This document shows, piece by piece, positions 15,326-21,566 of a stretch of 64,000 nucleotides of DNA; the first letter of the stretch is position 1; each line of letters begins with the position of its first letter. Below the pieces are notes generated by a model. The model had not been told where the DNA came from and made no database searches. It saw only the letters and a list, made by a program, of their open reading frames with translations. Source of the stretch: an uncultured Flavobacteriaceae bacterium (lineage in GTDB: Bacteria; Bacteroidota; Bacteroidia; Flavobacteriales; Flavobacteriaceae); assembly GCA_943787295.1 (NCBI GenBank), contig CALSLW010000002.1:524189-588188 (forward strand), written 5' to 3'. The translations under genes were made by a program, and so were the position numbers.

Positions 15326-15865
15326 TTAATCCTTGCGAACTTTTTGATACAGCTTGATTCCTAGCATCAATAAAACAGCTAATCCTATCAGAGATAATAC
15401 TCCAAAAATCCAATGAAAACTGCTCTTTAAAATCACCAAAAAGACAATGGCAAAAAGCAATAAGGTTGCCCCTTCATTCCACACCCGCATAAACAGAGAT
15501 GAATATTGTATGTCGTCCTTTTGAAAAGCTTTAAAGATGCGATGGGTCTTGAGATGATATAGAAATAGCAAACCCACAAAAAATAACTTAATTAACATCC
15601 AATCTTGTGTTAACCAAGACGGAATGATATAGAGTAAAAGCAGCGCAAAAATTGTCGCTAACACCGCCGAAGGCCACGAGATGATATACCATAAACGCCT
15701 TGCCATCAATTTGAGTTGTTCGGCAAGAATTTCTCGATCTGGACTTCCTTTTTCCATCGCCTCAATGTGATAAATAAATAAACGAGGCATATAAAACAAG
15801 CCGGCAAACCAAGTAATCACAAAGATTAAATGCAAAGATTTGATGTAATTGTAATAGGCGTCCAC
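15326..15865 (-). CDS. hemJ: Protoporphyrinogen IX oxidase HemJ (CopD/UPF0093 family)
   Basis: 179 residues, four or five membrane segments. The N-terminal YNYIKSLHLIFVITWFAG (heme-ligand His), FYMPRLFIYH and KLMARRLWYIISWP match HemJ, the heme-containing enzyme that oxidises protoporphyrinogen IX in bacteria without HemG or HemY. Location next to hemH, which uses its product, and to the other hem genes supports this over a copper-resistance CopD role. No hemG or hemY is seen in the window. Part of the leftward araC-hemH-MATE-hemJ run. Confidence 0.88.
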   Translation of the reverse strand: MDAYYNYIKSLHLIFVITWFAGLFYMPRLFIYHIEAMEKGSPDREILAEQLKLMARRLWYIISWPSAVLATIFALLLLYIIPSWLTQDWMLIKLFFVGLLFLYHLKTHRIFKAFQKDDIQYSSLFMRVWNEGATLLLFAIVFLVILKSSFHWIFGVLSLIGLAVLLMLGIKLYQKVRKD

Positions 15866-15889: not shown

Positions 15890-17263
15890 CTAAAAATACA
15901 AAAAGAAGAGAGCAAACGCTCTAGCTGAAGCGATATATTTTCTCAGCTCTCGCTGTAAGAAGATGGCGGTAACCACCGTCGCGACCGCTTCTGCAATAGG
16001 AAAAGAGATCCACACCCCAAAAGAACCATAATAACGCGGCAAGATCAACAGCAACGGAATAAAGAAAAAACCCTGTCTCGTCAAGGTCAATAATAAGGCA
16101 GGGATTGCTTTCCCAATCGCTTGAAAATAAGCCGAACCAATCAACTGAATCCCAATAATGGGTGTACTTAAAAAGACCCAAGTCAAAACATTTGCTGTTG
16201 TTGAAACTACTTCGGGTTCATTTGTAAACACCGCTGCAATATGATCGGCAAAAAAGACAATCATTACAAAAACCAACGTGGCTAATATCGTCGCATAAAG
16301 AATGGCTTTCTTGATGACTTCTACCACCCGCTCTTTTTTGTTTGCGCCATAATTAAAGCCTGCAATAGGAACAAAACCTTGTGTGATTCCCAGGATAGGG
16401 AAAAGAGCAAACATTAACATGCGGCTAATAATAGCATAAACGGCGACTAAATTCTCTCCTTCTAAGGTGAATAAAATATTATTCACTAAGAGGACAGTAA
16501 CACTCACCACGGCTTGTCTTGCGAGGGTAACAAAGCCCAGTCCTCCCATCTCTTTGACAATTTTTAAATCGAGTAATAAATCATTCCAGCCTAAACTTAA
16601 ATCTGATTTTTTAGATATAAAAAAATAGAGGATATAAGCTCCACAAATGGCATAAGACAAGGTGGTTGCCCAGGCGGCACCTTCCATCCCCCAGCCCATT
16701 TGATAGATAAAAACATAGTCTAAGATCAAGTTAGATATTGAAGGCAACACCATGGCGTACATGGCATTCTTTGGCTTGCCTTCTGCTCGTATGGTATTAT
16801 TTCCCATCATACAGAAACCTAGAATGGGCACTCCAATCAACACAATGATATAATAAATTCTAGCTAAGGGATAAAGTGCCCCCTTTCCACCAAATAGTGG
16901 AATGATTTGTTCTAAAAACACCAAACCCATGATCATAAAACTTAGGGTAAAGAGAAAGGTTAGGGTCAACTGATTCCCAAATACTTTGTTCGCCCTAGCC
17001 TTTTCATTACTCCCTAAAGCACGAGAAATAATAGAACCTCCACCCATTCCAATGGACATTCCCAAAGCGGCAATAAAAAAAGAAACTGGAAGAACAACAT
17101 TGATGGCTGCAATAGCATTAGCACCGATCCACTGTCCCACAAAAATGGTGTCAATTAAAATATTGAGTGACATCACTAGAATGCCAATGGAAGCTGGAAC
17201 CGCTTGCCGTATCAATAGTTTGCCAATGGGGTCTGTCCCCATTTGTGTCGAGCGATCTGCCAT
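15890..17263 (-). CDS. MATE family efflux transporter
   Basis: 457 residues from the ATG at 17263, with about 12 membrane segments. Typical MATE features: QAVPASIGILVMSLNILID, the internal twofold repeat, and GMGGGSIISRALG. The family exports drugs or metabolites in exchange for Na+ or H+. The ATG overlaps the hemH stop by one base (TAATG), better than the upstream in-frame ATG at 17290. The coupling to hemH hints at export of a heme-pathway compound, but that is inference only. Confidence 0.9.
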   Translation of the reverse strand: MADRSTQMGTDPIGKLLIRQAVPASIGILVMSLNILIDTIFVGQWIGANAIAAINVVLPVSFFIAALGMSIGMGGGSIISRALGSNEKARANKVFGNQLTLTFLFTLSFMIMGLVFLEQIIPLFGGKGALYPLARIYYIIVLIGVPILGFCMMGNNTIRAEGKPKNAMYAMVLPSISNLILDYVFIYQMGWGMEGAAWATTLSYAICGAYILYFFISKKSDLSLGWNDLLLDLKIVKEMGGLGFVTLARQAVVSVTVLLVNNILFTLEGENLVAVYAIISRMLMFALFPILGITQGFVPIAGFNYGANKKERVVEVIKKAILYATILATLVFVMIVFFADHIAAVFTNEPEVVSTTANVLTWVFLSTPIIGIQLIGSAYFQAIGKAIPALLLTLTRQGFFFIPLLLILPRYYGSFGVWISFPIAEAVATVVTAIFLQRELRKYIASARAFALFFLYF

Positions 17264-18294
17264 TAGGCTTTTACCGGTGAAAGAGCCCATTCATCGACCC
17301 AGCGACTCATTACATTAATCCACTCTTCGCGATCATTAATGCAGGGAACTACTTCTAGGTGTTCTCCTCCATTATCTTCAAAATCTTCGGCAGCTTCCAT
17401 CCCTATTTCTTCAAGGGTTTCTAGACAATCAGAAACAAAGGCTGGGTGTAACCACAGCCATTTTTTTAGTGCCCCTTTTGGCGAAAGCCTCAATGGTTTT
17501 ATCGGTATAAGGTTGCAGCCATGGATCAAGTCCCAGGCGCGATTGAAAAGAAGTGGAATAGGTCCCTTCTTTTAATTCTAAATATTCGGCGACTTGTTTT
17601 GTGGTTTCATAGCATTGATGACTGTAGCAAAATTCATGTGCTGGAGAGTCGGTTTGACAACATTTTCCGTCCATTTTACAGTGCGACTTTGTGATGTCTG
17701 ACTTGCGAATATGGCGTTTTGGCACCCCGTGATATGAAAACAGTAAATGCTCCCATTCTTTGTCTTTTAAATAGTCTTGAATCGAATTTGATAAGACTCT
17801 AACATAATCTGGATGCTTGTAAAAGGGCGGCAAAGCAGTAAAGCTCCATTTGCGGGAAATGCTGTTGACGCAATTCTTCTGCCAAAACTAAAATGGTCTC
17901 TGTCGTCGCCATAGCAAACTGGGGGTAGAGGGGTATAATAAGTGTCTCTGTCACCCCTTTATCGGATAAGGCTTGAAGCCCAGTTTTAATGGAAGGTTTC
18001 CCATAGCGCATCGCCAATTCTACTAGGCACACTAGTCTTGTCTTGCACTTTCGCTTGAAGTCGTTCTGATAAAACGATTAAGGGAGATCCTTCTTCCCAC
18101 CATATTTTTTTATAGGCTTTAGCCGATTTCTTTGGACGAGTATTTAAGATAATCCCCTTCACCAATAGGGTGCGGAATAGTTTAGGCAAATCAATTACCC
18201 TTTCATCCATTAAAAACTCTCCTAAATAGGTTTTTACATCTGGTGGATTTGGGCTGTCTGGCGACCCTAAATTGACCAATAAGACTCCTTTCAT
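17263..18294 (-). pseudogene. hemH: Ferrochelatase, interrupted by three frameshifts
   Basis: The protein reads through four pieces in different frames: [15 protein letters not shown] to about 18030; [12 protein letters not shown] to about 17835; PPFYKHPDYVRVLSNSIQ to about 17445; then AFVSDCLETLEEIGME to the end. It has the ferrochelatase signature SYHGVPKRH (metal-site His), CYSHQCYET and the acidic C-terminal site in LETLEEIG. Joined length is about 344 residues, normal for the family. No stop arises except through the shifts, and the translated sequence stays fully family-like, which points to single-base indels rather than old decay. It inserts iron into protoporphyrin IX. Confidence 0.9.
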
Positions 18295-18341
18295 ATGCTT
18301 TTTCTTTTCTTTTTTGGTGGATCGCTCCGCCAGCATTTTTT

Positions 18342-19228
18342 TTACGAAGATAAGGATAGTAGGTATTTTTTTGGAGTGGTGCCATATTTCTTTTTAAAGG
18401 CAGCGATAAAATGACTTGCAGTTGAGTAGCCTATTTTTAAGCCTACCTCATTTACATTGTATTTCCCCGATTCAAGCATTCGTCTTGCCTCTTCCATTTT
18501 ATGCGACAATAAATAGCCATAAACCGTATCGCCATAGAGCTGTTTAAAGCCTTCTTTTAACTTGCTTAAACTTAGCTCGATCTCCTCAGACAATTCTTGT
18601 AAAGAGGGGGGTTCTGCCATGTGGGTTAAAATTATTTCTTTAGCTTGCCTAATCTTGCGCACATTTTCCTCGTCGACTAAAAATGGACATTGTTCACTGT
18701 TCGCATCCTCGCTCTTTATTAAAATAAAGACTTAACAATTCATACACCTTCCCTTTGAGGTAAAGGGCCTGCATAGAGGGGTGAACATTTGCACTTAAAA
18801 TTTGACTCAACACCACCGCCATACTGGGGGTAATAATTGAAGTATCATAGTACTTTTTAGTTAAATTATCTGGACTCAAAAAGTGGATATGGTCAGCGTC
18901 TTGAGAAAACAAACTGTGAAACTTTTTGATAGAAATAACTACACTCACCAGCCATGCATTAGGAGCTAACTTTAAATCCATGGGTAAATCTCGCTGGGGG
19001 TTAAACAACAAGATGTTGTTTTCTTCTTCTACCGGAAAGCTGTAATTCCCATCGTTAAAAAGAAAATTCACCGCGGCCTTTTGTACAGAAATGAAACTGA
19101 ATAAAACTGCTACTCATCTCTCGAGTTTCACGAATAACCGCTGCACTATCATTTTGAAAACGCATCACAAAAAAGCCTTCTTCAATCTGGGTTAGCTTTG
19201 CTAAACTTTTATCGTTATTTTTATCCAT
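18342..19228 (-). pseudogene. AraC family transcriptional regulator, interrupted by two frameshifts
   Basis: N-terminal sensor part: MDKNNDKSLAKLTQIEEGF then SSFIQFHFCTKGRGEF. A shift at about 19065 (a T run) leads to NDGNYSFPVEEENNILLFN. A second at about 18710 leads to NSEQCPFLVDEENVRKI and the two helix-turn-helix motifs (MAEPPSLQELSEEIELS; YNVNEVGLKIGYSTASHF) ending [11 protein letters not shown]. Joined, it is about 295 residues, normal for an AraC regulator. The frame is open to a GTG at 19291. It is divergent to hemA and upstream of hemH, so control of the heme genes is likely. Confidence 0.85.
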
Positions 19229-19311
19229 CGAAAAGGAGATTTGCTTATTTAGAATAGTTCTTAATAGGTTAGGTTGAGCCTTCTTAAACACTTGTTTTTG
19301 TTGAATTTAGT

Positions 19312-19319
19312 CAAAAATA
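19312..19319 (-). promoter_or_regulatory. Promoter -7 element of araC-hemH
   Basis: TATTTTTG on the minus strand (TAnnTTTG). One copy of the 10-bp direct repeat ends 8 bases upstream of it, placing a bound regulator within the -33/-7 spacer, which would suit autorepression. Confidence 0.5.
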
Positions 19320-19327
19320 ATCGCTTT

Positions 19328-19358
19328 GCGTTACTTTCTCTACTTTTAGCGTTACTTT
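19328..19358. promoter_or_regulatory. Candidate AraC-type operator: two GCGTTACTTT repeats 21 bp apart
   Basis: GCGTTACTTT occurs at 19328-19337 and again, identical, at 19349-19358. The start-to-start distance of 21 bp is two helical turns, the classic spacing of direct half-sites for AraC-family proteins. The second copy lies at the -33 position of the hemA promoter, where an activator would contact RNA polymerase. Confidence 0.6.
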
Positions 19359-19375
19359 TTTTCTCTGGCGTCCTT

Positions 19376-19383
19376 TATTTTTG
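19376..19383 (+). promoter_or_regulatory. Promoter -7 element of hemA
   Basis: TATTTTTG, 21 bases before the hemA ATG. The -33 position has no TTG and is instead occupied by the second GCGTTACTTT copy, consistent with an activator-dependent promoter. Confidence 0.55.
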
Positions 19384-19404
19384 TATCGGATTTAGATTTG
19401 ATAC

Positions 19405-20657
19405 ATGAAGGTAGATTCTACTACACACCATTTTTATACCATTGGCATAAGCTATAAAACTGCTAACCTTAATACAAGGGGGAAGTTTAGCTTGAGCAAT
19501 GAGCAATGTTTAAGCCTTCTCAAGGAAGCCAAAGAAAAAGGCATCAAGAAATCTTGATCAACACCACTTGCAATAGGACAGAAATCTATGCCTATGCAGA
19601 ACATCCTTATCAAATCATCAAATTACTTTGTGCCCATTCTGGGGGGGAGTTAAGTGTTTTTGAACAACTAGGATTTATTTTAAAGAACGAAGAAGCCATT
19701 CATCACATCTTTAAAGTAGGAACAGGATTAGACTCGCAAATTCTTAGGGGATTTTGAAATCATCGGTCAACTAAAGCAAGGCTTTTATCGTTCTAAAAAA
19801 TTAGGCCTAGTCAATGGCTTTTCAGAACGCCTAGTCAATGCGGTTATTCAAGCGAGTAAACGCATCAAAACAGAAACTAAAATTTCGACTGGAGCGACAT
19901 CCTGTCGCTTTTGCTTCGGTGCAATATATCATTCAGAATATTGAGGCAGTTTCCAGACAAGAACATTTTGCTGTTTGGCACCGGTAAAATAGGGAGAAAT
20001 ACTTGTGAGAATCTCATCAAACATACCGACAAATGATCATATTGTTTTGATCAACCGCACCCACGAAAAGGCAAAAAATATCGCAGGAAAATTCAATGTC
20101 CTGGTCAAAGAATACGGCGAATTACCCACAGAAATTCGCAAAGCAGATGTAATGATTGTCGCCACTGGCGCACAGCTTCCCACCGGTGGCGAAAGATATT
20201 ATACATACCGAGAAACCGCTGTTAATTTTGGATTTATCCATCCCCAGCAATGTGCATGAAAACGTAAAAAACTTAGAGCATGTAAAAGTGGTCAACCTTG
20301 ATACCCTCTCGCAGATTACCAACAAAACACTAGAAGAGCGCAAAAAGCATTTGCCCCATGCAGAAGAAATTCTTCGTGAAATTGAGGCAGAGTTTTCACA
20401 GTGGTTACACGACCGTCAATATGCCCCTACATTACGCGCTTTAAAAGCAAAACTAACGGCACAACAAACTGCCGAAATTAAAGCCCGAGAACGCAAACAA
20501 AACCTGCCAGAAGAAGCAACCCTAGTATCGGATCAAATGATCCAGAAAATCACAGGACAACTCGCTAATTTCCTCAAAGAAAACCCCACTAAAGCCACGT
20601 GACGCTTTAAATATTTTTAAAGACGTTTTTCAATTAGACCCCTCGCACCATGAATAG
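19405..20657 (+). pseudogene. hemA: Glutamyl-tRNA reductase, interrupted by about seven frameshifts
   Basis: Starts at ATG 19405 (MKVDSTTHHFYTIGISYKT). Reading across frames gives the catalytic motif INTTCNRTEIYAYAE, the region GLVNGFSERLVNA, the NADPH-binding LLFGTGKIGRNTCENL and the C-terminal helix FSQWLHDRQYAPTLRALKAK. Shifts are at about 19547, 19746, 19902, 19961, 20033, 20182 and 20599. The last removes the normal C-terminus, which continues in another frame as DVFQLDPSHHE with its stop at 20655-20657, 5 bases before hemC. Joined length (about 417) is normal. First enzyme of the C5 heme pathway. Confidence 0.88.
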
Positions 20658-20662
20658 GGTCT

Positions 20663-21566
20663 ATGCGCATAGGCACACGCGATAGCGCATTGGCCCTTTG
20701 GCAAGCAAACACCCTGCAAGAACGTTTGTTAGAATTAGGCATCACTGCAGAACTAGTTCCCATAAAAAGTCAGGGAGATCTCAATTTAAACCAACCCCTC
20801 TATGCGATGGGAATCACAGGGATTTTCACAAAATCCCTGGACATTGCACTGACTCAATAAAGACATCGATATCGCCATCCACAGCATGAAAGATGTCCCT
20901 ACTCAATTGCCCAAAGGGATTGTTCAAGCCGCTGTTTTAGAAAGAGGCCCAGTGGGAGATATCATGGTGTGGAAAAATAATATGGCTAAAGCCAAAGAGA
21001 CAAAGACCATCGCAACCGGCAGTCTTAGAAGAAAGGCACAATGGATGGCGGGAAACCCCCAAGACAAGATTGTTCCCTTAAGAGGAAACATTCAAACCCG
21101 CCTTAAAAAACTGCAAGAAGAAAATTGGGATGGCGCTATTTTTGCCGAAGCCGCCCTGCATCGACTAAATATTAAAGACGAAATCGTTGAGCCACTTAAC
21201 CATCTGTTACCCGCTCCAGCACAAGGGGCTTTAATGGTGGTATGTCGGTTAGAAAACGAAGATATCGCTCAGCAACTCACTTTACTCAATGACCGTGAAG
21301 CAGAGATTTGCACTCAGGTCGAACGCGATTTTTTAAGCACTCTAGAGGGAGGCTGTACCGCCCCCATAGGAGCATATGCTTATTGCGAAAAAGATACCGT
21401 CCATTTTAAGGGAGGACTATATTCTTTAGAAAGAAGCAGTTCGCAAGAAATTAAAAAGAGTTTCCCTAAAAAAGAGACAGATAAAATGGGGGCGATACTC
21501 GCCAAAGCATTACTCCAACAAGGGGGAGACATATTGATGAAAGAATTCAAAAAAGGGCATGCATAA
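20663..21566 (+). pseudogene. hemC: Porphobilinogen deaminase (hydroxymethylbilane synthase), one frameshift
   Basis: MRIGTRDSALALWQAN begins at 20663. The frame breaks after TKSLDIAL at about 20853 and resumes with NKDIDIAIHSMKDVPTQLP. The cofactor-binding cysteine is in LEGGCTAPIGAYA, and ATGSLRRKAQ is the conserved substrate region. Joined product about 301 residues, normal length. It polymerises four porphobilinogen units. The single shift is beside ACTCAATAAAG; correcting one base restores the protein. It overlaps hemD by 8 bases. Confidence 0.9.

Follow-up and report, generated by a model that had tools for sequence, protein, structure and literature searches.

Based on the comparison of the window (the whole stretch of DNA analysed here, 64,000 nucleotides long) with related genomes, we propose that a conserved element between the divergent genes araC and hemA is probably the operator of an AraC-type regulator, responsible for class-II activation of hemA, with heme as the likeliest signal. 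The parts of this proposal differ in strength. The putative operator, its half-site spacing, its fixed place relative to the -7 element and its tie to the regulator gene are strongly supported by the sequence comparison. From these we infer that AraC binds the element and that it activates rather than represses, and the chance that heme acts as an end-product feedback signal is about even.

In the window, hemA (glutamyl-tRNA reductase, with the domains GlutR_N and GlutR_dimer) lies on the forward strand at 19405..20602 and the araC regulator gene (HTH_18) on the reverse strand at 18342..19228, the frames of both being broken in the assembly (that of araC near 19060-19080 and near 18715). On the araC side, hemH (ferrochelatase, 17278..18288, frame broken) and, further downstream, a hemJ-type gene (UPF0093, 15326..15865) are also on the reverse strand; the preliminary description had the regulator gene lead a presumed hemH-hemJ transcript, and a MATE-type gene (15890-17290) intervenes between the two. 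Frameshifts within 17278-20890 break araC, hemH, hemA and the start of hemC, and the flanking open frames appear intact; poor coverage of this stretch in the source assembly (2.2 Mb, 89% complete) is a more likely explanation than decay. The candidate operator is formed by two copies of GCGTTACTTT on the forward strand: a distal half-site (19328..19337), which is conserved in position and CGAYACT-like in most relatives, and a proximal half-site (19349..19358, the A of AGCGTT being at 19348), which occupies the -33 position of hemA. They lie between two facing-away -7 elements, both assigned by consensus sequence only: that of hemA (TATTTTTG, 19376..19383, forward strand) and that of araC (TATTTTTG on the reverse strand, CAAAAATA in forward letters, 19312..19319). 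The two exact repeats, the 21 bp that separate them and the -7 elements on either side were thus all found where the preliminary description had placed them.

Exact copies of GCGTTACTTT occur nowhere else in the window, their distance being 21 bp from start to start, and the 2.2-Mb assembly contains a single pair so spaced. Allowing one mismatch, 10 matches of the 10-mer were counted in the window where 4.8 would be expected, and 10 were reached in 2 of 100 shuffles. An exact 10-mer repeat with at least three G/C letters arose in 564 of 20000 Markov-1 copies of the 175-bp intergenic stretch (2.8%), or in 24 of 20000 (0.12%) when a spacing of 20-22 bp was demanded, and 13 of the 365 175-bp tiles of the window hold one such repeat. 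Taken alone, the repeat pair of a single genome is only moderately surprising and is weak evidence; the significance of the operator comes from its conservation across relatives, not from the repeat itself.

A 125-residue piece of the regulator, used as query, found a relative in 188 of 199 family genomes. From these, 89 loci (from 89 sampled genera) were taken, 29 as automatic best hits and 60 picked by hand, a choice that makes the sample lean to better hits. The two genes are adjacent and divergent in 86 of the 89 Flavobacteriaceae loci, L016, L234 and L247 being left out for lack of hemA in the extracted stretch. In 85 of the 86 intervals, at least 18 of the 23 letters of the composite element CGWYAYT-N4-GTTC-N4-AGCGTTAYTTTT are present (all 23 in 31 intervals), a score attained by 0 of 860 Markov copies and by one of the 86 reversed intervals. 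The start of AGCGTT lies exactly 28 bp before TAnnTTTG in 85 of the 86 intervals (the remaining one is without an exact TAnnTTTG), and the same arrangement appears in 1 of 860 Markov copies. The information profile of the element is anchored on the consensus and therefore flatters it, and many Flagellimonas/Muricauda loci have a poor distal half-site. The divergent order and the 28-bp distance hold without exception in the best 80 named loci, all closely related to a single query and drawn from genera that include Zobellia, Maribacter, Cellulophaga and Arenibacter. An AraC-type operator serving hemA, as had been suggested from the window, is hence borne out in its letters, spacing and position across relatives; in particular, the repeat and its spacing, looked for upstream of hemA in these genomes, are conserved.

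The composite pattern, with up to three mismatches, has two matches in its own genome, the operator (one mismatch) and another at three mismatches. It was matched in 153 of the 199 family genomes, with exactly one match in 138 of these 153; at two mismatches, 46 of the 199 gave no match, and the reversed pattern, used as control, was matched in 21. A large AraC regulon is not supported, given about one match per genome. Hits to araC and hemA co-occur in the 199 genomes (180 with both, 9 with neither, 8 with araC only and 2 with hemA only; Fisher p 1e-9, with kinship ignored), and 9 of the 17 genomes that lack a hemA hit reach 90% completeness or more with no more than 5% contamination. Neither of the two hemA-only genomes has a GCGTT in the 240 bp upstream of hemA (partly read by eye), and their best composite score, 13, is like that of random sequence. 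G127 keeps a match to the pattern 69 bp upstream of its hemA match, even with araC some 1.8 kb off. Conservation by itself names no protein, and the element might be some special promoter motif, or a different factor might bind it, with araC nearby only incidentally. This is very improbable in view of the co-occurrence with araC, the absence of the element in both hemA-only genomes and the single match in most genomes; additionally, the tandem half-sites at 21 bp change together across lineages and similar sites stand beside araC relatives with other targets (see below).

When anchored on the proximal half-site, the similarity to the upstream sequence peaks at 21 bp (0.585), against a mean of 0.252 (sd 0.062) for other spacings and a next best value of 0.509 at 11 bp. 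In an unanchored test, 21 and 23 bp tied at 6.47 in the family, and 21 bp was best in 19 further loci (7.0, the next being 6.42); anchored tests were adopted next. A set of 25 loci is more diverged, 7 of them within the family and 18 beyond it; here a spacing of 21 is shared by all of the 8 best among 1224 offset/spacing pairs, which overlap and are hence not independent (best 6.4 of 10, with a mean of 3.59 and sd of 0.45 over the pairs); L344 was mis-anchored in this test and its site was checked separately. The letters of the proximal half-site vary among the diverged loci (for instance GGGGTATTT, GAGGTATTT, GCGGTATTT and GCGATATAT). Residue 222 tends to go with the half-site type, being Arg in 12 of 14 rows of GGTAT type and Lys in 86 of 92 of GCGTT type; this pairing was considered but set aside, being confounded by ancestry and having exceptions in L266, L267 and L323.

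AraC-type control through half-sites 21 bp apart is of a known kind. AraC at araI1-I2 of E. coli araBAD and XylS at Pm use direct half-sites with this spacing and a proximal half-site at -35, and the E. coli AraC gene is divergent from its target. The system described here is similar in its tandem half-sites, in the place of the proximal one (-33 instead of -35) and, for AraC, in the divergent regulator, and differs in the half-site letters, the target, the Bacteroidetes -33/-7 promoter and the number of sites (about one per genome). In the mechanism that we propose, two AraC subunits would bind head to tail, on half-sites two helical turns (21 bp) apart, and the proximal subunit, in the -33 position and 28 bp before the -7 element, would supply the contact of the missing -33 element, turning hemA on (class-II activation). 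The preliminary description had the second repeat replace the -33 region of hemA, which holds as to position, TTTG being absent at the -33 spacing of the hemA promoter in 82 of 86 loci; the activation that it read from this fits by geometry only. Indeed, the position alone leaves the sign undecided, and AraC could instead repress hemA by covering -33 with the proximal half-site, until a ligand releases it. We consider this quite unlikely: without TTTG the promoter looks activator-dependent, the exact 28-bp distance suits contact with RNA polymerase, and many AraC-family proteins activate.

The regulator itself has the C-terminal double HTH of the AraC/XylS family (Pfam HTH_18 and HTH_AraC, both above cut-off), and its putative sites have the tandem half-sites about 21 bp apart, with the proximal one at -35/-33, that go with this family. 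The N-terminal domain, for which there was no Pfam hit, is predicted to be beta-rich (mean pLDDT 82.3, pTM 0.56), and it is on this predicted structure that we count it as the beta-barrel ligand domain of the family. The best Foldseek match is ToxT (E 4.8e-13, with a TM of only 0.33 over both domains), followed by Rns and CsvR, and the regulator may resemble the PchR-type siderophore sensors. In the numbering of L003, the residues Cys180-Pro181-Phe-Leu are invariant in 25 of 25 regulators, with Cys180-Pro181 falling in the interdomain linker (residues 172-184, a zone of low model confidence), and Cys-Pro and His104 are found in all 282 distinct regulators of the clade, many of which are closely related. 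None of seven outgroup rows has the Cys-Pro, a partly circular contrast since the outgroup was chosen after its missing Cys-Pro was seen; the tree subsequently separated this outgroup at 99/99. The regulator thus contains a conserved Cys-Pro followed by a hydrophobic residue, which is the heme regulatory motif described for Har of P. gingivalis in the available part of the article (PMC4222909). According to the same part, Har is similar to our regulator in this motif, in coming from a member of the Bacteroidetes and in its heme-related control, and differs in having a Fur fold and measured hemin binding (PMC4222909), whereas our regulator is of AraC type and would bind heme by inference. Its Cys-Pro may hold heme, or it may be structural only.

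The leader of araC in the window contains a palindrome of the published Fur box form (TATTTAGAATAGTTCTTAATA, 19246..19266), which scores 17/18 against TATTTAGAAnnnTTCTAAATA. With a threshold of 15 of the 18 letters, this palindrome is present in the araC leader of 78 of 87 loci and in none of 86 shuffled regions; with a threshold of 14 letters the counts are 81 and 1. Close to its start, araC hence carries a match to the flavobacterial Fur box, as would a Fur-regulated gene, and an iron input to araC through this predicted box is likely, though with Fur repressing araC under high iron, hemA would go down just when iron is abundant, an arrangement whose benefit is not obvious. In the accessible part of the source, the Fur box of Riemerella anatipestifer, ATTTAGAATTATTCTAAAT, is reported to give gel shifts on several promoters (PMC5609570), and a later paper, as far as its available text goes, cites a different, E. 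coli-type box for the same strain (PMC7976709). In the accessible parts of these reports, the R. anatipestifer box shares with the araC leader the form ATTTAGAA-N3-TTCTAAAT (PMC5609570; PMC10986502) and stands mainly at uptake genes, whereas here it precedes the regulator gene of heme synthesis. A large regulon of the palindrome was rejected, its strict form occurring in 4 of 6 genomes at one or two sites each. Among other places with such palindromes, those of L177 (at 3062, 3123 and 4344; G000:C1:502061-503363) precede a gene whose outer-membrane-like product has no Pfam hit; next come an FMN_bind gene and a gene for a small membrane protein, an arrangement that looks similar by eye in L178-L180. 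In 3 of 6 genomes (L354, L355 and L356, at 1501), the strict palindrome lies between a gene for a small secreted protein and a cytochrome c-like gene, which by eye seems the first of a respiratory cluster.

On the araC promoter side, 51 of 87 loci have the -7 element at 74 or 75 bp to the left of the proximal half-site, and 22 of the 87 gave no exact araC -7. An exact CAAAnnTA 36 bp left of the proximal half-site occurs in 3 of 87, namely the window, L003 from the same genus and L239 from a different one. The first repeat does lie near the araC -7 element in the window, its half-site beginning 9 bp away, as the preliminary description had it; autorepression by such overlap, also suggested there, was rejected as a general rule, this closeness being confined to the three loci. 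That 9-bp distance would also suit a single switch, in which AraC at the operator activates hemA while shutting off its own araC-hemH-hemJ transcript, the earlier idea of one control over both arms of the heme locus. With the closeness so rare, hemH not always downstream of araC (it was found in the extracted stretch in 21 of 29 and 26 of 80 loci, some stretches ending early), a MATE-type gene ahead of hemJ and a Fur-type box that suggests a separate control of araC, this idea is unlikely.

Relatives of the regulator also adjoin uptake genes. HmuY was sought in 12 neighbour proteins and found in 6, with its genes divergent to regulator relatives in five genomes (L273, L274, L277/L349, L312 and L348, where L277 and L349 are of one genome). 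Genes for TonB receptors are divergent to relatives in L264, L266, L267 and L314, and for the TonB receptors beside relatives the top-scoring models are those for vitamin B12 or hemin, with no score reaching the cut-off. Ten of the 17 family genomes without hemA hit were examined, partly by eye: a receptor gene with an operator-like site adjoins araC in four (G048, G062, G106 and G147), in G015 and G197 the receptor gene that has such a site upstream is distant from araC, or araC was not found, no receptor was seen in G186, G128 and G187, and the contig of G008 breaks off. The araC of G197 adjoins an apparent hemC (by eye), so that the absence of hemA need not mean that the whole pathway is absent. 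With the proximal half-sites picked by eye, an exact TAnnTTTG stands at +28 in 10 of 17 uptake sites, with a single-letter deviation in 5 more and no fit in 2; a scripted geometry test on 18 uptake loci was weak, with the pair (28,21) scoring 4.94 (mean 4.05) and not being the top one. The tree, with good support for only 34 of its 74 inner branches, requires six changes for the hemA label and six for the uptake label, the uptake label of rows without HmuY match resting on position or likeness, and the targets of the regulator were probably exchanged more than once. Other neighbourhoods were also seen. In L336 a hemH match and a gene resembling, by eye, protoporphyrinogen oxidase precede an araC relative, a further heme context; in L264, L266 and L343 relatives lie near a cytochrome-biogenesis gene (DsbD_2 in L264) and genes that look by eye like oxidase-assembly genes; and in L337-L341 members of the Cys-Pro clade adjoin a gene for a large secreted repeat protein, with no clear heme gene.

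It is from the HmuY neighbours and the Cys-Pro that heme is taken as the signal. Activation of hemA would come from the heme-free regulator, most likely at times of heme shortage; heme, possibly bound by the linker Cys-Pro and by His104, both invariant, would switch the regulator off and so give an end-product feedback on an early step of heme synthesis. The regulator could instead answer iron or a porphyrin precursor, as the Fur-type box at araC and the ferrochelatase gene often found downstream would suit; iron already has an input of its own, and the HmuY neighbours and the Cys-Pro would point to heme itself, which makes such a signal rather doubtful. More broadly, and with somewhat less than an even chance, this would be a heme-supply regulator across Bacteroidetes, with heme sensed by the Cys-Pro of a flexible linker and one operator geometry serving to activate hemA or, where heme is imported, HmuY and TonB receptor genes, several hemA-less lineages having the operator before a receptor gene.

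Searches of open-licence papers gave no description of this regulator or its site, nor of any AraC-type regulator of hemA in Bacteroidetes. The present comparison names a regulator together with its predicted site, at base-pair resolution, and a candidate residue for sensing, and heme feedback could be tested directly in this system, away from the usual models. Additionally, it offers a natural series in which the half-sites of an AraC protein, and perhaps its targets, have changed over lineages.
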